Of a stretch of 11,597 nucleotides of DNA, positions 1,261 to 9,090 are shown one piece after another. The stretch spans positions 1 through 11,597 of the forward strand of contig WGBJ01000091.1 of the NCBI GenBank assembly GCA_015494385.1, read 5' to 3'. Every line of letters begins with the position of its first letter. Position 1 is the first letter of the stretch. The notes under the pieces were generated by a model. The model searched no databases. It was not told the DNA's origin and saw only the letters and a list, made by a program, of their open reading frames with translations. The position numbers were made by a program, and so were the translations under genes. Source of the stretch: Marinosulfonomonas sp. (GTDB taxonomy: Bacteria > Pseudomonadota > Alphaproteobacteria > Rhodobacterales > Rhodobacteraceae).

Positions 1261-1369
1261 CCGGATGGGCGAGGCGATCGAATTTGGCCTGATTGATGGC
1301 ACCACGGTTGCCGCGAAAATTGTTGATCCGGTGTTCTATGACAAAGAAGGGGAGAAGCAGAATGTCTAA
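1197..1369 (+). pseudogene. soxA: Out-of-frame tail of soxA (frameshift point to true stop)
   Basis: After GTG ACG TCA (V-T-S, ending at 1197) the family-like reading needs one base skipped in the AAA run at 1197-1199. From ACC at 1199 frame 2 reads TYHSPTLGRGIAMGLVLHG, then PDRMGEAIEFGLIDG and TTVAAKIVDPVFYDKEG, closing at TAA 1367-1369. VTS-[ST]-Y-x-SP-x-LGR is the usual close of the T-protein-like domain in the alpha subunit, and no other residue is lost or gained. The simplest explanation is a +1 insertion of A. It replaces about 56 C-terminal residues with an unrelated ~20-residue tail. This may be a true mutation or a sequencing/assembly error. The restored stop overlaps the soxG start by 8 bases, as expected for an intact operon. 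Confidence 0.85.
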
Positions 1370-1916
1370 TGCTGTCAGCGCGTTGCAGGGCGTTTCTTCT
1401 GCCGGATATGTGGATGTGCAGGAAATTGGCCTGCAAGGGATGATCACCCTGCGCGGTGATCTGTCGATGGGTAAAATTGCCAAGGCGGTCAAGGCGGCTG
1501 TGGGGGTGGAAATGCCCGCGCAGCGCGGGATCAACCTGAAAGACGGCAAGGGGGCGGCGTGGATGTCGCCGGATGAATTGCTGTTGATGGTGGCCTATCA
1601 GGACGCCGAAGCAACCGTGGCCAAACTGCAAAAAGCGCTGGGCGAGACCCATTCTCTGGTGGTCAATGTCTCGGACGCCCGCGCGGTGTTCACCCTGACC
1701 GGCGAGCGGGTACGCGAAGTGCTGGCAAAGCTGTCGCCGGTGGATATGGACACTTTCCCGATGGGCGAAATCCGCCGCACACGGCTGGCACAGGTGCCGG
1801 CCGCGTTCTGGATGTCGGGCGAGGATGAAATCACGCTGGTGGTGTTCCGCAGCGTGGCGCAATACGCGTTTGATCTGCTGAAAACAGCGGCGGCCAAGGG
1901 CGGCGAGGTCTGGTAA
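1362..1916 (+). CDS. soxG: Sarcosine oxidase gamma subunit
   Basis: This gene encodes 184 residues, starting MSNAVSALQG. ATG 1362 is chosen over upstream in-frame codons from 1293 because GGGGAG at 1349-1354 lies 7 bases before it, and because it gives the usual gamma-subunit length and the normal short overlap with the soxA stop at 1369. The gamma subunit is a small relative of the T-protein fold and is a structural member of the alpha-beta-gamma-delta enzyme in the cytoplasm. Visible support includes QEIGLQGMITLRGDL near the N terminus, the central AAWMSPDELLLMV segment, VSDARAVFTLTGERVREVLAKL, and the terminal FRSVAQYAFDLL helix. It is translationally coupled to soxA, so both are presumably made from one transcript that starts left of the window. 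A following hairpin at 1899-1925 may end it. Confidence 0.9.
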   Translation: MSNAVSALQGVSSAGYVDVQEIGLQGMITLRGDLSMGKIAKAVKAAVGVEMPAQRGINLKDGKGAAWMSPDELLLMVAYQDAEATVAKLQKALGETHSLVVNVSDARAVFTLTGERVREVLAKLSPVDMDTFPMGEIRRTRLAQVPAAFWMSGEDEITLVVFRSVAQYAFDLLKTAAAKGGEVW

Positions 1917-1935: not shown

Positions 1936-2631
1936 TTATTGACCCAATGCCAGATGATACCCAATTCTGAATTCCGGTGTCAGGGTCGAAACAGACAGGT
2001 TGCCAGCGTCCAAACCTCCAAGATCGGTTAAGGATATGCTGCTTCTTCCGGTTTTGACGACAACGGCACTTGCCGACAACTGTCCACGGCTGCCAACATC
2101 CCTAAGATACCTTAGCCCGACCATGCCATAGCCGCTTGTGCTGCTCTTTGACCCGCTAACAACGGTGTCATCGGTTTGAATGTCCTGATAGACCACCCCG
2201 CCACCAATGCCGAATTCGGTCCGCCAGCGCGTGCCTTTGTTCACAAGTCCCCACAGGTTAACGCCGATGCGCCCCGTCTGGATATTGCTGCGGTAGTGAA
2301 ATGCAGGGTTGGGCAACCCGGGAAAACTGGCCGAGACGACATCATAATCATTGAACCACGCCAGTTCCACTTCGGGGGTTATGGTAACACCTTTCCAATT
2401 CCATTTATCCTGAATACCATAGGTCAGGGATATGCCCTGATAGTCGACTTGAACTGTATCTTTGTTACTGAAATTGCCGGCCGTATTATAGCCGTCAAAC
2501 GCATTTATTGGCGCCCCTGCGATCAGGTTCAGGCCGATATAGCGTTTTGTCCCCTCGGCATGGGCCGGCTGTAGGCCAAGGGTTAAACAAATCGCAATGA
2601 CGGTCGAGGAAAGTAGGGTGCTTTTTTTCAT
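1936..2631 (-). CDS. Small predicted outer-membrane beta-barrel protein
   Basis: The protein has 231 residues from the ATG at 2631-2629. An upstream in-frame start at 2700 exists, but the later ATG begins a textbook signal peptide (MKKSTLLSSTVIAICLTLGL, then QPAHA|EG) and has AGAGAAG about 5 bases before it. The mature part of ~206 residues is a run of amphipathic, aromatic-rich strands: RYIGLNLIAG, VQVDYQGISLTYGI, GVTITPEVELAWF, IQTGRIGVNLWGLV, RTEFGIGGGVVYQ, GYGMVGLRYLR, GQLSASAVVVKT and TPEFRIGYHLALG. That makes about eight strands, the size of OmpA-domain or OmpX-like barrels. It has no OmpA peptidoglycan domain and no terminal phenylalanine. The beta-barrel prediction is by eye. I do not recognise the exact family or the ligand. 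It converges with soxG and diverges from the small secreted-protein genes. Confidence 0.7.
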   Translation of the reverse strand: MKKSTLLSSTVIAICLTLGLQPAHAEGTKRYIGLNLIAGAPINAFDGYNTAGNFSNKDTVQVDYQGISLTYGIQDKWNWKGVTITPEVELAWFNDYDVVSASFPGLPNPAFHYRSNIQTGRIGVNLWGLVNKGTRWRTEFGIGGGVVYQDIQTDDTVVSGSKSSTSGYGMVGLRYLRDVGSRGQLSASAVVVKTGRSSISLTDLGGLDAGNLSVSTLTPEFRIGYHLALGQ

Positions 2632-2834
2632 AATGCTTCTCTTGGTGCTTATTGTTTCTAAAGTGCCTGAACAATGCAAAATAGTTAAAATACAAAACAT
2701 CGATTAAGCCGTTCGGTAACGCATGTCAATTTTTCGCATGCAGCAATTTGAATGTATGATCTTGTGGGTTATTTCTTGCCTTTACTGCCCGTTATTGGTG
2801 TGTAATGCTGGGGTGGGTAACAATAGGTTTAGTG
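2632..2834. other. Divergent, AT-rich intergenic region
   Basis: About 200 bases separate the minus-strand barrel gene from the first secreted-protein gene and should hold both promoters. Visible structures are a weak minus-strand promoter-like pair at 2651-2679 and a short inverted repeat, GCATG 2721-2725 and CATGC 2737-2741, around an AT-rich centre that could be an operator. I could not find a convincing plus-strand -35/-10 pair. No RNA gene or further coding sequence is evident. Confidence 0.5.
2651..2679 (-). promoter_or_regulatory. Weak sigma70-like promoter candidate for the outer-membrane gene
   Basis: On the minus strand TTGCAT (2679-2674) and AACAAT (2656-2651) are separated by 17 bases, with the -10 ending about 20 bases before the chosen ATG. 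The -10 matches the consensus at 4 of 6 positions and the -35 only partly, so this is a positional candidate. Confidence 0.22.
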
Positions 2835-3248
2835 ATGAGAGTTCAAAAAAGTTTTGCCGCAATCCTGTTAGGGGCTATCGCGCTCGCTGGTTCTGCATTT
2901 GCAACATCATACAAATGCAATATCAGGGAAAATGGCCTATATGGCGCGATTCCTTCGGTTTTGGTTTTTTCAGTCAACGAGGAAGAAAGCAAAGCCGTAA
3001 TTTATTATGCTTTGATCAAATATTTATATGAAAGACCAATCGAGGCAAAGCTAGTTGTGGCCAACCCCAAACGGTATACATTCAAATGGTCGGTTGATGT
3101 CCCAACCTCCGAAAATAACAGAACCACAATCAAAACAGATTACAGAGCAAGCTACATCAGGGGAACGCGCAAGATTTCCCTGCGGGGCTTTCCAAGAGGG
3201 TTTGACGTTGAGTTTACCGGCGCTGGGAAATGTATTCCCGTGAAATAA
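2835..3248 (+). CDS. Small secreted two-cysteine protein, paralogue 1 of 4
   Basis: The protein has 137 residues from ATG 2835, chosen because it begins a normal signal peptide (MRVQKSFAAILLGAIALAGS, then AFA|TSYKC). An in-frame ATG at 2805 would put 10 extra residues before it, and neither start has a clear Shine-Dalgarno. Mature cysteines are C28 (SYKC) and C133 (GAGKC), the only two, so one disulfide in the periplasm or outside the cell is likely. The centre, YERPIEAKLVVANPKRYTFKW, matches paralogue 4 (YDRPIEATVVASSDKRLTVKW) almost residue for residue. The rest is beta-rich and has no known catalytic motif. Codon use is markedly AT-rich compared with soxG or sodB, suggesting a different history. 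I do not recognise the family, and the function is unknown. Confidence 0.75.
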   Translation: MRVQKSFAAILLGAIALAGSAFATSYKCNIRENGLYGAIPSVLVFSVNEEESKAVIYYALIKYLYERPIEAKLVVANPKRYTFKWSVDVPTSENNRTTIKTDYRASYIRGTRKISLRGFPRGFDVEFTGAGKCIPVK

Positions 3249-3355
3249 CACGCTTTCCGGGCCTCAAAATGCTGTGATGGGTTCTTGGAATCCGGGTGTG
3301 AATGATTAGTTATAAGGTCATAATATAAACCGGTTCCGAATAGGAGATCTGACAA

Positions 3356-3871
3356 ATGAAACGCATTCTTACGGTTGCTCTTGCATCGTTTGCACTGATG
3401 GCCGGCGCTGCCAGCGCCAAAACATATTCATGCAGCGTCACACCGGACAGCTCCCGCGACTTCATCCCGCACACCCTGTTGATGAATATAGATGATAACA
3501 GCGGTAAAATTTTGATCTATGATGATCTGGTGAAAAAGGTGGTGGGAAAGCCGGTCCGTGGCAAACTGTCCGCTGAAACCGGCAAGCGGATCACTGTGAA
3601 GTGGACTCTGCATCAGGTGCATGACGATTATGGCGAGAGCACGGCGCGTTTCTTTTTTCGGGCCTCCTATTACAAGGATAATGGCAAATTGATCATGTCG
3701 TCTATCCCGGGTGGCTGGGACAATATGTTTGGCGGTCGGGGTCGGTGTACTGTCACATCAGATGAAAACTGGTCCAATGTATTGGCGAATACACCGGTTC
3801 AGACATTTAACGCCCGTGGCAAGGAGCGCTTCTTTATGTCCGGTGAAAGCAACGATTGGGTGTTCCGGTAA
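3356..3871 (+). CDS. Small secreted two-cysteine protein, paralogue 2 of 4, with C-terminal extension
   Basis: The protein has 171 residues. ATG 3356 has a good AGGAG at 3342-3346. The signal peptide is MKRILTVALASFALMAGAAS-A|KTYSC. The only two cysteines are C26 (TYSC) and C131 (GRGRC), spaced 105 residues apart exactly as in paralogue 1. The family core is present as VGKPVRGKLSAETGKRITVKW (residues 63-83), followed by an aromatic strand (ARFFFRASYYKDNGKLIM) and a GGWDNMFGGRGRC close. Unlike the other three it continues about 40 residues past the last cysteine, with a polar tail ending ESNDWVFR. A 107-base gap upstream leaves room for its own promoter. Paralogue 3 begins 36 bases downstream, so co-transcription is likely. 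Function is unknown. Confidence 0.8.
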   Translation: MKRILTVALASFALMAGAASAKTYSCSVTPDSSRDFIPHTLLMNIDDNSGKILIYDDLVKKVVGKPVRGKLSAETGKRITVKWTLHQVHDDYGESTARFFFRASYYKDNGKLIMSSIPGGWDNMFGGRGRCTVTSDENWSNVLANTPVQTFNARGKERFFMSGESNDWVFR

Positions 3872-3907
3872 GCGGGTTATATTTCGGTGGAATGAAAGGT
3901 TCTGGTT

Positions 3908-4351
3908 TTGAGAAAAAAGATGATTGTTGGCGTTTTGGTTGCGGCTTTGTTTACAGGCGCTGCCAATGCGGAGTCGTACGAATGCAAAGTGAAAATCCGT
4001 GGAATTGATTACGGGTGGATATCCAGGGCTTTGGTGATCAATATTCCCTATCGGTTAAATGAAACCTCGGTCGAGAACACACTTATCAAGGCCACAGGAC
4101 CGACAACAGTCCCCGCTGATTTGTCTATGTACAGCAAGCAACGGGTGACTGTCAGTTGGGAACTGAAAGGCGTTCTTGGGCCACATGGCAAGAATTTGGG
4201 AATAATCAGGTACAGGGCGACTGTTTTAAAACCTAGCAACCGGATTTCTGTAACCGCGCTTGACCCTGGCGGGTTACATTCGATTGGCCCCACTATGGCC
4301 CAGGGGCGGGAAACAGCGAGTGCTACAGGCAAGTGTGTGTATCATAAATAA
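3908..4351 (+). CDS. Small secreted two-cysteine protein, paralogue 3 of 4 (probable TTG start)
   Basis: The protein has 147 residues if translation starts at TTG 3908. That start gives a positively charged signal peptide (MRKKMIVGVLVAALFTGAAN-A|ESYEC) and has AAAGG at 3895-3899, 8 bases upstream. The ATG at 3920 would give MIVGVL with no basic n-region, so I prefer TTG, which also aligns the first cysteine (C26) with paralogues 2 and 4. The only cysteines are C26 (SYEC) and C143 (TGKC). It shares DYGWISRALVINI with paralogue 4 (DNGWISKTIVVNV) and the core KQRVTVSWELKG. A ~10-residue insertion (LHSIGPTMAQGRETA region) lengthens the loop before the last cysteine. It is 36 bases after paralogue 2 and 39 before paralogue 4, consistent with one operon. 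Function is unknown. Confidence 0.77.
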   Translation: MRKKMIVGVLVAALFTGAANAESYECKVKIRGIDYGWISRALVINIPYRLNETSVENTLIKATGPTTVPADLSMYSKQRVTVSWELKGVLGPHGKNLGIIRYRATVLKPSNRISVTALDPGGLHSIGPTMAQGRETASATGKCVYHK

Positions 4352-4390
4352 AGATGTGAAATAGTTTGAGTAAAAAAGAAGGGATGGGGA

Positions 4391-4804
4391 ATGAAAAATA
4401 CAATCATAACCGGTGTTTTGGCAATTGGTCTGGTGGCAGGGTCCGCCAATGCCGAAACATACGTTTGCAAGTTGAAAACGTCAGGGCGTGATAATGGCTG
4501 GATTTCAAAAACCATCGTTGTCAATGTGAATGATGCGGGCGACAAAGTTCTGGTTAATGATGCGCTTGTCCAGCAAGCTTACGACAGGCCAATTGAGGCA
4601 ACGGTTGTTGCGAGTAGTGACAAGCGATTGACCGTAAAGTGGGAAGTGAATGGGCTTAAGACTGTACGAGGTGTTACCATCCCGCGCTTTATGTACCGTT
4701 TGACGATCCTGAAAGCACGGGGAAACAAGGCCATTGTCAAGGCTCAGGCCGCTGGTTACTGGGGGGATCTGGGCGCATCCGGTAAGTGCAGACTTAGCAA
4801 GTAA
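4391..4804 (+). CDS. Small secreted two-cysteine protein, paralogue 4 of 4
   Basis: The protein has 137 residues from ATG 4391, preceded by purine-rich AAGGGATGGGGA that offers a ribosome site. The signal peptide is MKNTIITGVLAIGLVAGSAN-A|ETYVC. The only cysteines are C26 and C133 (ASGKC). The order of shared elements is the clearest of the four: YVCKLKTSGRDNGWISKTIV, a D/N-rich turn (NDAGDKVLVND), YDRPIEATVVASSDKRLTVKW, an aromatic strand (RFMYRLTILK), and a GYWGDLGASGKC close. The protein is beta-rich, with no active-site motif that I recognise. It is the last gene of the array. sodB follows after 105 bases, with its own leader. Role unknown: a small periplasmic or exported binding protein or inhibitor is possible, but nothing in the sequence shows this. 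Confidence 0.8.
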   Translation: MKNTIITGVLAIGLVAGSANAETYVCKLKTSGRDNGWISKTIVVNVNDAGDKVLVNDALVQQAYDRPIEATVVASSDKRLTVKWEVNGLKTVRGVTIPRFMYRLTILKARGNKAIVKAQAAGYWGDLGASGKCRLSK

Positions 4805-4849
4805 GCGGTTCTGTCGCATTGTTTGATAAAGGGAAACCCCTTGACCTTC

Positions 4850-4904
4850 CCCCCTTGGCCGCTGCATCTATCGGCATAGATTTTCACGCGAACAACCAAG
4901 GGGG
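4850..4904 (+). promoter_or_regulatory. Inverted repeat overlapping the sodB Shine-Dalgarno
   Basis: CCCCCTTGG (4850-4858) is perfectly complementary to CCAAGGGGG (4896-4904), which contains the sodB ribosome site AAGGGGG, 5 bases before ATG 4910. A second CCCCTTG copy at 4837-4843 could pair with the same site. Folding would hide the ribosome site, but only on a transcript that begins upstream of 4850. TTGACC at 4841-4846 could instead be a -35 box; a transcript from it would lack the left arm. Confidence 0.4.
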
Positions 4905-4909
4905 CTAAT

Positions 4910-5518
4910 ATGTCTTTTACACTTCCCGATCTACCCTATGCACATGATGCGCTGGCCGATGCCGGCATGTCCAAGGAAACACTGGAATACCACCACGACT
5001 TGCACCACAAGGCCTATGTCGACAACGGCAACAAGCTGATTGCCGGCACCGAGTGGGAAGGCAAATCGCTGGAAGACATCATCACCGGCACCTATCAGGC
5101 CGGTGCTGTTGCGCAGAACGGTATCTTCAACAACGCATCCCAACACTGGAACCACACCCAGTTCTGGGAAATGATGGGGCCGAATTCCGGCGCCATGCCC
5201 GGCGAGCTGGAAAGCCGCATCACGGATGCCTTTGGCACGGTCGATGAATTCAAATCGCAGTTTGCTGCAGCAGGTGCTGGCCAGTTCGGTTCCGGCTGGT
5301 GCTGGCTGGTGGTTGATACCGACGGCACGCTGAAGGTGACAAAAACCGAAAACGGTGTGAACCCGCTGTGTTTCGGTCAAACCGCGCTGCTGGGCTGTGA
5401 TGTTTGGGAACATTCCTACTATATCGATTTCCGCAACAAGCGGCCGGTTTACCTGTCCAACTTCCTGGACAAGCTGGTGAACTGGGAAAACGTGGCCGAA
5501 CGTCTGGCCAACGCCTAA
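4910..5518 (+). CDS. sodB: Superoxide dismutase, Fe type
   Basis: The protein has 202 residues, the usual length for a cytoplasmic Fe/Mn superoxide dismutase, and no signal peptide. It converts superoxide to O2 and H2O2. By alignment with the E. coli enzyme the metal ligands are H28 (EYHHDLHHKAYV), H82 (QHWNHTQFW), D164 and H168 (CDVWEHSYYIDF). Q78, four residues before H82, is at the position of the outer-sphere glutamine of iron enzymes (manganese enzymes carry it elsewhere), so iron is the likely metal, though cambialistic use cannot be excluded. The family ending RNKRPVYLSNFLDKLVNWENVA is complete. The start at ATG 4910 has AAGGGGG 5 bases upstream. A strong hairpin with a T-run at 5527-5553 ends the transcript. 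The upstream inverted repeat may affect translation. Confidence 0.96.
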   Translation: MSFTLPDLPYAHDALADAGMSKETLEYHHDLHHKAYVDNGNKLIAGTEWEGKSLEDIITGTYQAGAVAQNGIFNNASQHWNHTQFWEMMGPNSGAMPGELESRITDAFGTVDEFKSQFAAAGAGQFGSGWCWLVVDTDGTLKVTKTENGVNPLCFGQTALLGCDVWEHSYYIDFRNKRPVYLSNFLDKLVNWENVAERLANA

Positions 5519-5553: not shown

Positions 5554-5573
5554 CATATTTGGGGAGACATTGT

Positions 5574-5960
5574 ATGAGCTATACTCTGGACCGCATTCTG
5601 GCCGGCATTGACATGGATACCGCCGAAGAACGGACACGCGCGGCGCTGACGGCCAACGGCTTTGGTGTGCTGACAGAAATCGATGTAACCGCGACGATGA
5701 AGAAAAAGCTGGATGTCGACATGGCCGGGTACAAAATTCTTGGGGCCTGTAATCCGAAAATGGCCTATGAGGCGATCGGGCTGGAGCCGAAACTGGGGGC
5801 TATGCTGCCGTGCAATGTGATCCTGCGCGCCGTGGATGGTGGTGTCGAGGTCAGCGCGATTGATCCTGTGGCCTCGATGATGGGCGTTGATAACGCCGAA
5901 CTGCCTGCGGTCGCTGAAATGGTGCGCGGGATGCTGCAAAAAACGGTTGACGAAATCTAG
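5574..5960 (+). CDS. DUF302 domain protein
   Basis: The protein has 128 residues from ATG 5574, which has GGGGAGA at 5561-5567. A TTG start at 5559 in the same frame would begin inside the sodB terminator and is rejected. The whole protein is one DUF302 domain: ALTANGFGVLTEIDVTATMKKKL (residues 25-46), the hallmark YKILGACNPKMAYEAI with C59, and LGAMLPCNVIL with C80, then a short beta-strand and a terminal helix. DUF302 proteins are small cytoplasmic alpha/beta proteins of unsettled function, often found near redox or sulfur genes. The two conserved cysteines are suggestive of thiol or metal chemistry but prove nothing. The sodB terminator upstream and the palindrome downstream suggest its own transcription unit. 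Confidence 0.88.
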   Translation: MSYTLDRILAGIDMDTAEERTRAALTANGFGVLTEIDVTATMKKKLDVDMAGYKILGACNPKMAYEAIGLEPKLGAMLPCNVILRAVDGGVEVSAIDPVASMMGVDNAELPAVAEMVRGMLQKTVDEI

Positions 5961-6170: not shown

Positions 6171-7115
6171 ATGACACGCACACAACAAGGCATTGCCGCA
6201 ATGATCGCGGCCTGCGTCCTATGGGGTCTGTCGCCACTCTATTACAAAGCGCTGTCACACATCCCCCCGCTGGAAGTGCTGTCACACCGCACCCTGTGGT
6301 CGCTGGTGTTCTTTGGCATCGTGTTGGCAGTGCAGGGGCGGTTGGGAGAAATCGGCGTGATTTTCCGCTCGGGCGGGCTGTTTGCGGTGATGCTGGCCTC
6401 GTCAATCCTGATCGCGGTGAACTGGGGCATCTTTATCTGGGCCATTCAGGTCGGGCGCACGGTTGAATCCAGTCTGGGCTATTACATTTACCCGCTGATC
6501 TCGGTCCTGCTGGGGGCTGTGCTGTTTCACGAACGGCTGGACCGGGTGCAAATCCTGTCGGTGGTGCTGGCAACAGGAGCGGTGGGCCTGTTGACATGGG
6601 GGCTGGGCGTTGCGCCGTGGATATCACTGTCGCTGGCGATCAGTTTTGTCGCCTACGGGGTGATCAAGAAACAGGTGCCGGTGGGGCCGGTGGTGTCGGT
6701 CACCACAGAAGTGCTGCTGTTGTTGCCGCTGGCTATTGTCTGGCTGTGGGGCATCCATGCGCAGGGCTGGAGCGATTTTGACGGCCGCAACGTCGCGGCG
6801 TTTGGCGATGGCTGGTTCAACACCGTCATGCTGATGGGGCTGGGGCTGATCACGGCCTTGCCGCTGATCCTGTTTTCCTATGCCACCAAACGGCTGGGGT
6901 TCGCCACGCAAGGATTGCTGTTCTATCTGAACCCGACCCTGCAATTCATCGTCGCTGTTGTCGCCTTTGGCGAAGCAGTCAGCCGTTGGCACATGATTGC
7001 CTTCCCGCTGATCTGGCTGGCGCTGGCGATCTATTCGCTGAATGCGCTGCGTCAGGAAAGGGCGTTGCGCAGGGCATCCGTCAAGGCAGGCACGGTTTCC
7101 ACCACATCGAAATAA
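6171..7115 (+). CDS. rarD: RarD family transporter (EamA/DMT superfamily)
   Basis: The protein has 314 residues with about ten hydrophobic helices, the layout of drug/metabolite transporters with two EamA repeats. Diagnostic RarD stretches are the N-terminal QGIAAMIAACVLWGLSPLYY, PPLEVLSHRTLWSL (residues 32-45), NWGIFIWAIQ, VESSLGYYIYPLISVLLGA (around 98-116) and LGFATQGLLFYLNPTLQFIV near the C terminus. RarD is an inner-membrane protein named from chloramphenicol-sensitivity studies; its natural substrate is not settled. Start ATG 6171 has only a weak ribosome site (CAGGCAACACC before it). The last 21 codons overlap antisense with the end of the convergent LOG gene, and the tail RRASVKAGTVSTTSK is probably an unstructured consequence of this. 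Confidence 0.9.
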   Translation: MTRTQQGIAAMIAACVLWGLSPLYYKALSHIPPLEVLSHRTLWSLVFFGIVLAVQGRLGEIGVIFRSGGLFAVMLASSILIAVNWGIFIWAIQVGRTVESSLGYYIYPLISVLLGAVLFHERLDRVQILSVVLATGAVGLLTWGLGVAPWISLSLAISFVAYGVIKKQVPVGPVVSVTTEVLLLLPLAIVWLWGIHAQGWSDFDGRNVAAFGDGWFNTVMLMGLGLITALPLILFSYATKRLGFATQGLLFYLNPTLQFIVAVVAFGEAVSRWHMIAFPLIWLALAIYSLNALRQERALRRASVKAGTVSTTSK

Positions 7116-7621
7116 TCGCGCAGGCTGGCATCGGCGAACCCCTGTTCGATCACATGCTCCAGCAGCGCCAGCAGGGGTTGCCAATAGCCATCGACATTCA
7201 ACAGATAGATCGGTTTTTCATGCAGGCCCAGTTGGCGCCATGTCAGAACCTCGAACAATTCGTCCAGTGACCCCGCCCCGCCGGGCAGCACCACAATGGC
7301 ATCCGAATTCATATACATCACCTTTTTGCGCTCGTGCATGTTTTCGGTGACGATGAATTGTGACAGATCCCGCTTGCCGACCTCGCGCCGCATCAGGTGC
7401 TCGGGGATCACGCCAAAGGTTTCACCGCCTGCCGCCTGCGCCCCGCTGGCCACGGCCCCCATCAACCCGACATCGCCCGCGCCGTAAACCAGTCGCCAGC
7501 CCTGTTGTGCCAGTGTCCGGCCCAGTTCGGTTGCAGCGGCCTTGTAGGCGGGGTTGGTGCCAAAGCGGGATCCGCAATAGACACAGACGGACAGGCGGGC
7601 AGGGGAGGGGGAAACAGACAT
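7052..7621 (-). CDS. LOG family protein (cytokinin riboside 5'-monophosphate phosphoribohydrolase type)
   Basis: The protein has 189 residues from the ATG at 7621-7619, with AGGAA about 10 bases upstream. A longer in-frame start at 7729 would overlap the divergent LysM gene and add 36 residues that are not family-like. Known members hydrolyse nucleoside 5'-monophosphates at the N-glycosidic bond, giving a free base and ribose 5-phosphate. Support: the nucleotide-binding fold opening VCVYCGSRFGTNPAY, LVYGAGDVGLMGAVA (44-58), MHERKKVMY (95-103), and the signature PGGAGSLDE (113-121), with serine where threonine is commoner, then LDELFEVLTWRQLGLHEKPI. Bacterial members are often annotated TIGR00730 or lysine decarboxylase-like; the latter activity is not expected. 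The 3' end lies within rarD. Confidence 0.92.
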   Translation of the reverse strand: MSVSPSPARLSVCVYCGSRFGTNPAYKAAATELGRTLAQQGWRLVYGAGDVGLMGAVASGAQAAGGETFGVIPEHLMRREVGKRDLSQFIVTENMHERKKVMYMNSDAIVVLPGGAGSLDELFEVLTWRQLGLHEKPIYLLNVDGYWQPLLALLEHVIEQGFADASLRDYFDVVETVPALTDALRNALS

Positions 7622-7646
7622 GTGACAATATTCCTGAAAACGGCTT

Positions 7647-7675
7647 TTGACCGCTGATACCGCTGTTGCTATGGT
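7647..7675 (+). promoter_or_regulatory. Sigma70-like promoter candidate for the LysM protein gene
   Basis: TTGACC (7647-7652, 5 of 6 to consensus) and TATGGT (7670-7675, 4 of 6) have the ideal 17-base spacer. Transcription would start near 7682, giving a ~40-base leader to ATG 7723. It lies in the divergent space between the LOG and LysM genes. Confidence 0.5.
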
Positions 7676-7722
7676 CGCGCAAGCACGGGGCCGCTGGGGC
7701 TGTGCGAAAAGGGAAGAATAAG

Positions 7723-9090
7723 ATGACAAACAAGACTGCGCTGGGGTCCGGAATTCAAATGGTGGCCGGAGGGGCCGCTGCTGTTGCCTTGGCGTTGGCG
7801 GCCTATCTGGGCTATCAGTATTTTAACAACACACAAGCACCGGTAACATTGTTACAGCCGACCGAAGGGGCGGATGCAAAAGCCACCAGCGGGGGCGACA
7901 CCGGCACAGCACCCGCGACAACTGCGCCCGCCCAAAGTGAGACCGCTTCCAATCCGCTGGCCGATGATCAGGCCGCTCCGGACGGGCAAACCAATGTGGC
8001 CACCCCCTCTGTCCCCGCGCCGAAATTCGACGTGGTTCGGGTTGCGCCGGACGGAAGTTCGGTCATCGCCGGCCTTGCCCAGCCCGGAGAAGAGGTCACC
8101 ATCCTGCTGGATGGCAAGGAAGTGGCCCGCGCAACCGCAGACGCGCAGGGAAATTTCGTATCATTGCTGACGGTTCCGCCCAGCGATACCGCCCGTGTGG
8201 TGACCCTGTCTGTTCCCGGCGAAGGCGATGCCGTGGTGGCATCCGATGACAGCATCATTCTAGCCCCCGTAACCAGCCCGACACAGCCACAAGACCAGAT
8301 CGCCAGCGCCACGCAAACGCAACCTTCCGCACCCTCGCCACAGCAGACAGAACAAACCCCTGCAACGGAAGAGAGCCCAGCCGATACAGCCGCTTTGGAG
8401 GCGGGCGAAACAGGGGCGCAAACCGGCGCGCCTGATGCCGATACTGAAACCGCGCAAACCCGGACACCTGCGGGCCCTGATGCTGAAACCCAAACAGCAA
8501 CACCCACAGCGACAGAGACGCAAACACCGGCAGGCAACGCTTCCGATGCCCCCAAAGCCCCCGCTGTGTTGCTGGCGTCCAAAGACGGGGTGCGCGTCTT
8601 GCAACCCGCTGACAGCAGCCCCGAAATGACAACCAACGTGGTGATTGACGCAATCAGCTATGACGCCGCTGGCGAGGTTCAGTTGTCGGGGCGCGGCACG
8701 GATGAAGGCTTTGTGCGGGTCTATCTGGACAACAAGCCGGTTCTGACCACACCAATTGACGCCGGCGGGGGCTGGCATACCGAATTACCCGATGTCGATA
8801 GCGGTATCTATACCCTGAGGGTGGATCAGGTCGATGCCACAGGATCCGTGGTTTCGCGCACCGAAACACCGTTCAAACGCGAAACCGCCGAAGCCCTGCA
8901 AAGCACCCAAAGCACGTCCCGCGCGCCAGCCATTGCGATCACCGTTCAGCCCGGATCGACCCTCTGGGCGATTGCGCGGGAAACCTATGGCGACGGGATG
9001 ATGTATGTGCGCGTCTTTGAAGCCAACCGCGACAGCATCCGCGACCCCGATCTGATCTATCCCGGACAAGTGTTCGCAGTGCCCGATTAG
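7723..9090 (+). CDS. Membrane-anchored LysM protein with two Ig-like segments
   Basis: The protein has 455 residues from ATG 7723, with AAGGGAAG about 6 bases upstream. An in-frame TTG at 7666 lies inside the candidate promoter and is rejected. Order of parts: one N-terminal membrane helix (about 12-32, IQMVAGGAAAVALALAAYLG) that leaves the rest in the periplasm; a Thr/Ala/Pro/Gln-rich linker (about 40-98); a first Ig-like segment (about 101-183, EEVTILLDGKEVARATADAQ); a long acidic linker rich in T, P, Q, E and D (184-280); a second Ig-like segment (about 282-385, FVRVYLDNKPVLTTPIDAGG); and a C-terminal LysM domain (about 405-453, VQPGSTLWAIARETYGDG and DPDLIYPGQVFAVPD). LysM domains bind N-acetylglucosamine polymers such as peptidoglycan. 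It probably spans from inner membrane to cell wall; its precise job is unknown. This architecture is common in alphaproteobacteria. Confidence 0.88.
   Translation: MTNKTALGSGIQMVAGGAAAVALALAAYLGYQYFNNTQAPVTLLQPTEGADAKATSGGDTGTAPATTAPAQSETASNPLADDQAAPDGQTNVATPSVPAPKFDVVRVAPDGSSVIAGLAQPGEEVTILLDGKEVARATADAQGNFVSLLTVPPSDTARVVTLSVPGEGDAVVASDDSIILAPVTSPTQPQDQIASATQTQPSAPSPQQTEQTPATEESPADTAALEAGETGAQTGAPDADTETAQTRTPAGPDAETQTATPTATETQTPAGNASDAPKAPAVLLASKDGVRVLQPADSSPEMTTNVVIDAISYDAAGEVQLSGRGTDEGFVRVYLDNKPVLTTPIDAGGGWHTELPDVDSGIYTLRVDQVDATGSVVSRTETPFKRETAEALQSTQSTSRAPAIAITVQPGSTLWAIARETYGDGMMYVRVFEANRDSIRDPDLIYPGQVFAVPD

Follow-up and report, generated by a model that had tools for sequence, protein, structure and literature searches.

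This work concerns an array of four small genes in an 11,597-nucleotide stretch of Marinosulfonomonas sp. DNA (contig WGBJ01000091.1), hereafter called the window. Between positions 2835 and 4804, four consecutive plus-strand genes encode homologous exported proteins, each with two cysteines. Gene 1 (2835..3248, with an in-frame ATG further 5′ at 2805) and gene 4 (4391..4804) each encode 137 aa. Gene 2 (3356..3871) encodes 171 aa, with a C-terminal extension of ~36 residues following a predicted barrel, while gene 3 (3908..4351) has a TTG start and encodes 147 aa, including an 11-residue insert ahead of the second cysteine. The first cysteine is residue 5 past the A-x-A site of putative signal peptides judged by eye, and the two cysteines are 105, 105, 117, and 107 residues apart in genes 1, 2, 3, and 4, respectively. 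These open reading frames (ORFs) and spacings confirm the original prediction of four consecutive two-cysteine genes of 137–171 aa with spacings of 105–117 residues on the plus strand. The [KQ]R-x-T-x-[KS]W core that it described is present in all four proteins, as KRYTFKW, KRITVKW, QRVTVSW, and KRLTVKW. The proteins of genes 2–4 are 26–30% identical to that of gene 1, and 15 alignment columns are invariant. When gene 4 was used as a query against its own genome (540 contigs, 92% complete), the other three array genes were recovered at E values of 1.2e-18, 2.8e-18, and 1.8e-13, with no further match at E ≤ 10. Because gene 4 alone retrieves the other three, the four proteins are more than chance look-alikes, and this homology bears out the earlier proposal of local duplication followed by diversification. 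The array genes have a GC content of 44–51%; six neighboring genes lie at 56–61%, and a predicted outer-membrane protein gene described below lies at 50%.

An alignment of 59 family members was picked by hand from the 95 found, mostly shorter ORFs. Both cysteine columns are invariant in it, and the mature part, set from rough cleavage points, contains exactly two cysteines in 59 of 59 members; among full ORFs, which include over-long starts and fragments, exactly two are found in 59 of 122. Counted by column, Cys26 is invariant in 117 of 117 sequences and Cys133 in 111 of 111. Trp84 (97%), Gly131 (97%), Asp57 (91%), Tyr102 (83%), and Pro67 (80%) are also strongly conserved, with Asp57 the sole charged residue above 80%. 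The 59-member profile aligns to the four array proteins with an hhalign probability of 100, a value that is partly a matter of construction, as the four sit among the 59.

Searches of Pfam and NCBIfam gave no convincing match for the four genes or the 59 members. Stray weak rows (Big_4, PS_pyruv_trans, and pyruv_kin) each fell on one or two members, Rv0804_CPBP appeared as a weak row in 2 of 59 (best E 0.0004), and rows for the window's own genes were under the curated cut-off. None was accepted as an identity, since each is confined to one or two members. A sequence search of the PDB returned no relative (six rows, best E 0.25, all discarded), and Rfam gave no match. Protein database searches yielded 22 matches with gene 4 as the query and 26 with the profile, none with a Pfam domain; few carry a name, and that name is "hypothetical protein" except for a single UniRef entry named DUF3108. 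No account of the family was found in titles and abstract openings, a survey that covers subscription papers thinly, and a term search of PMC2953401 returned no passage. These results uphold the view that the proteins form an undescribed family without a recognizable domain. PADLOC models of known anti-phage defence proteins gave no match for any of the four proteins at E ≤ 0.1. No match was found in plasmids and viral contigs with gene 4 as the query or in phages with the array DNA and gene 2, leaving a mobile-element origin unsupported; two weak PHROGs rows concern gene 1 only (best E 0.021).

The family occurs in many Rhodobacteraceae, and the genome searches recovered it nowhere outside the window's own GTDB family. 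Of 394 genomes from that GTDB family, 98 were matched by the 59-row profile, or 91 of 347 when only good-quality genomes are counted, and an 18-row profile matched 71 of the same 394. A class-wide genome search matched 4 of 385, all four within the window's GTDB family and including the window's own genome.

The main context, which the original prediction missed, is a fixed chromosomal slot between soxG and sodB. Sixty-one loci were compared, comprising 60 fetched regions and the window, from the 71 genomes matched by the 18-row profile (ten were unfetched). The common order is soxA, soxG, family genes, and sodB, then often rarD, LOG, lysM, and an ABC transporter. A sox gene lies upstream in 53 loci, sodB downstream in 55, and both are present in 50. 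By predicted starts, the median distance is 106 bp between sox and the family, 36.5 bp between genes of an array, and 112 bp between the family and sodB. One family ORF is present in 44 loci, two in 8, three in 4, four in 2, and five in 3, counts that include fragments of broken genes. Taken together, these data make it very probable that the exported, soluble array proteins represent a family of the Rhodobacteraceae that has so far gone undescribed and that resides at the soxG–sodB slot.

In the window, the upstream border is soxG (sarcosine oxidase gamma, 1293..1916, plus strand; Pfam PF04268 and synteny), and the downstream border is sodB (Fe/Mn superoxide dismutase, 4910..5518, plus strand; PF00081/PF02777 and synteny). 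A gene for a predicted outer-membrane beta-barrel protein (1936..2700, minus strand), based on a weak Pfam OMP_b-brl row below cut-off, lies inside the slot between soxG and the array. Among the 61 loci, a blastp screen matched it in the window's own genome and the related Profundibacter amoris (P. amoris) only, with a synonymous divergence (dS) of 0.53. A DUF302 protein gene (5565..5960) lies directly 3′ of sodB and was unmatched in the other 60 loci.

The proximity to sodB raises the question of whether the family acts with the dismutase, as a periplasmic oxidative- or metal-stress protein whose place next to sodB reflects a joint need for the two. Consistent with such coupling, 55 of 61 loci have sodB downstream in the same orientation, at a distance of ≤211 bp in 48 of those 55, and the family stays by sodB in five loci that yielded no upstream sox gene (L043, L046, L064, L070, and L086, the last near a contig end). 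However, family members also occur beside sox without sodB (L071 and L091; L047 reaches a contig end) and away from both borders (L058, L063, and L080). In L063, the gene next to the family member (6633-8309) resembles ribosomal protein S1 by eye. As an independent check of the slot, a set of 80 loci was chosen through SodB rather than through the family. The family is present in 20 of these, always upstream of sodB, and absent from 60, a majority that speaks against coupling. Thirty-two loci have sox without the family, 28 of them with a sox–sodB gap of ≤412 bp; in the remaining 28, some of them on short contigs, neither sox nor the family was found. The slot is therefore empty or nearly so in many relatives.

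A TTGACC + ATCTAT element at 4841..4871 (plus strand) is a possible promoter for sodB itself. A TTGAC lies within 150 nt of sodB in 17 of the 21 family-bearing loci and in 42 of the 59 that lack the family, counts that carry no shuffle control. General promoter and terminator scans gave 7 versus 4.6 and 7 versus 4.3 in shuffles, little above expectation; they were not used, and they do not list the 4841..4871 site. Because the promoter-like element stands before sodB with or without the array, an operon with sodB appears unsupported, and the same element argues against coupling. The identity of family members between loci also has almost no relation to that of SodB (Mantel r 0.07, a value reached in 110 of 999 permutations). 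On balance, we regard a SodB-coupled function as unlikely.

The slot also holds other cargo; one Ruegeria genome, for instance, has an FkbM methyltransferase there, and one Oceanicola genome has a glycosyltransferase. An opposite-strand methyltransferase-like gene occurs in the slot of L157, L167, L169, and L172 (Ruegeria and Phaeobacter relatives), at times beside family genes; Pfam FkbM was run for L172 only, and the other three are alike by eye. In L172, two family members (4157-5037) are inverted relative to sodB.

Presence of the family was mapped onto a soxG+sodB tree of the 50 SodB-drawn loci in which both SoxG and SodB were found. The tree calls for at least 11 presence changes, at least 5 of them forced by its starred branches, compared with ~15 when labels are shuffled; values as low arose in 7 and 14 of 500 shuffles. 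With fewer changes than in the shuffles, presence is patchy, yet not random. Sequence divergence was compared across the 50 of 61 family loci that have both borders. Mean between-locus identity is 25% for the family copy nearest sodB, versus 84% for SodB and 50% for SoxG. SodB and SoxG identities correlate with each other (Mantel r 0.34; 0 of 999 permutations as high), whereas the family follows SoxG (r 0.09; 75 of 999) as poorly as it follows SodB. In a weakly resolved tree of 90 of the 95 members, with those <110 aa dropped, within-genome pairs are mixed with cross-genome branches.

Comparison with P. amoris, which belongs to the same genus, reveals turnover at close range. Its counterpart of gene 2, extension included, is 79.5% identical over 166 aa. 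Three of its copies are nearest to gene 1, and one of these is broken by a stop; the two full copies are 52% identical to each other and 43–49% identical to gene 1. The extra copies could either have arisen in P. amoris or been lost in the window genome. A fusion in P. amoris, P0021 (L034 8700-9179), is 70% identical to gene 3 over residues 1–105 and, over the following 53 residues, 79% identical to the end of gene 4 (residues 85–137). The fusion is out of register, with ~20 barrel residues present twice. Measured against P. amoris, dS reaches 1.10 in gene 2, 1.27 in the gene 3 part, and 0.56 in the gene 4 part, with gene 1 saturated; hidden paralogy and codon usage may have inflated these values. 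Eight neighboring genes give 0.17–0.53. The ratio of nonsynonymous to synonymous divergence (dN/dS) is 0.11 for gene 2, 0.13 for the gene 3 part, and 0.35 for the gene 4 part, indicating purifying selection.

Such turnover might be expected if the genes were mostly expendable passengers in an intergenic slot of changeable content, maintained there by duplication and transfer. Patchy presence, the broken copy in P. amoris, the other cargo of the slot, and a GC content that is below the flanking level in 50 of 58 loci all fit this explanation. The low dN/dS of genes 2 and 3 (and, at 0.35, of the gene 4 part) does not, nor do the invariant cysteine pair and the frames that are mostly open across the family, and we consider passengers very unlikely. 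The best reading of these observations is a fast-diverging birth-and-death family, with copy-number change, fusion, and decay.

Structure prediction suggests a common fold. The gene 4 model is an eight-stranded barrel (pLDDT 87.5, pTM 0.78), as is the gene 2 model (pLDDT 82.4, pTM 0.73), with the same strand order. The expectation that the four folds would be alike thus holds for these two, the only ones modeled. The nearest structures to both models are designed and avidin-type barrels, and an eight-stranded beta-barrel, predicted with good model confidence for these two members, is highly probable for the family. At strand positions, the more hydrophobic parity has a mean entropy of 2.19, versus 3.25 for the other parity. 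Outward positions carry Lys/Arg at 25% versus Asp/Glu at 12%, and Lys/Arg or Ser/Thr make up at least half of the residues at outward positions 71, 79, 81, 103, 105, 113, and 117. The median mature pI is 9.3, exceeding 8 in 50 of 59 members. This distribution resembles less an enzyme site than a core under conservation and a face that varies and is in part basic, with Asp57 as a possible exception.

The hydrophobic inward positions, including the near-invariant Trp84 and Tyr102, would also suit a lipocalin- or avidin-like carrier of a hydrophobic small molecule, as would the avidin-type structural neighbors. However, the same residues would make an ordinary packed core, and a ligand carrier seems to us rather improbable.

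Our analysis instead favors binding barrels with diversified partners, located in the periplasm or outside the cell; the probability of this chain as a whole is roughly 0.45. The proteins would exit by Sec and be oxidized in the periplasm, where a disulfide would tie the first and last strands. On the resulting rigid scaffold, the outer face, variable and basic overall, would bind a partner, either anionic or a protein, in the cell envelope or beyond it, the seven lower-entropy Lys/Arg/Ser/Thr positions listed above being the candidate binding face. Within an array, the members may have different partners or bind with different affinity, and the gain, fusion, and loss of copies would follow changes of partner. 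Such turnover may be tolerated in the slot because sodB seems to have its own promoter. Several points weigh against binding barrels of this kind. Arrays are a minority, a single family ORF being the rule. Where dN/dS against P. amoris could be estimated (0.11–0.35), no sign of positive selection was found. The basic charge is common to DUF3108 proteins too, and binding itself is read from sequences and models. The defence or inhibitor role raised in the original prediction is likewise an inference. Further still, the soxG–sodB slot could be a diversification locus serving recognition at the surface or in the periplasm, where gain, fusion, and replacement between strains affect cationic barrels that recognize molecules of rival bacteria, phage, or algal hosts, a proposal we consider quite unlikely; if true, it would mean that a variable interaction system is concealed next to a housekeeping gene.

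Roughly one in four of the genomes sampled from this GTDB family encodes a protein family unnamed by Pfam and NCBIfam. Its mostly fixed chromosomal address makes presence, absence, and copy number readable and deletions simple. Genes that multiply, fuse, and diverge far faster than their neighbors often answer to a changing partner, and discovery of that partner could open a question on the interactions of these bacteria.

Among known systems, the MliC/PliC lysozyme inhibitors (PF09864) invite comparison. Like the array family, these proteins are exported, begin with Y-x-C, and have a late cysteine, and we take them to be small barrels as well. This shared plan, together with the variability of the family, would suit a secreted barrel inhibitor of lysozyme or protease working as MliC/PliC or Inh. 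In contrast, alignment of the family to seven Rhodobacteraceae MliC proteins gave an hhalign probability of 4.9 over 7 columns, and the S-x-SGA-x-Y motif found in all 7 of these occurs in 0 of 122 family ORFs. The array proteins are also longer, and they are basic where MliC is acidic. An inhibitor of this type is accordingly of low probability. None of the 59 members matches MliC, Inh (PF02974), or Avidin (PF01382) at E ≤ 0.1, and MliC, Inh, and lipocalins are not among the structural neighbors listed, an absence that speaks neither for nor against an Inh-like barrel; a search for Inh gave a hit in one genome of 61. DUF3108 (PF11306), the UniRef name of P0021, was rejected as an identity: P0021 has no Pfam match at E ≤ 0.01, 0 of 59 members match, and the hhalign probability is 1.1. 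A further structural neighbor, 5hal, known by its entry title only ("putative beta-lactamase", Burkholderia vietnamiensis), is 11–12% identical. Avidins (bradavidin, rhizavidin, and agroavidin) share with our models the eight-stranded, avidin-type barrel arrangement. They show no sequence relation to the family (8–10% identity; hhalign probability 0.1 for the two avidins compared), and, unlike them, the array family has an invariant cysteine pair predicted to link both ends of the barrel.
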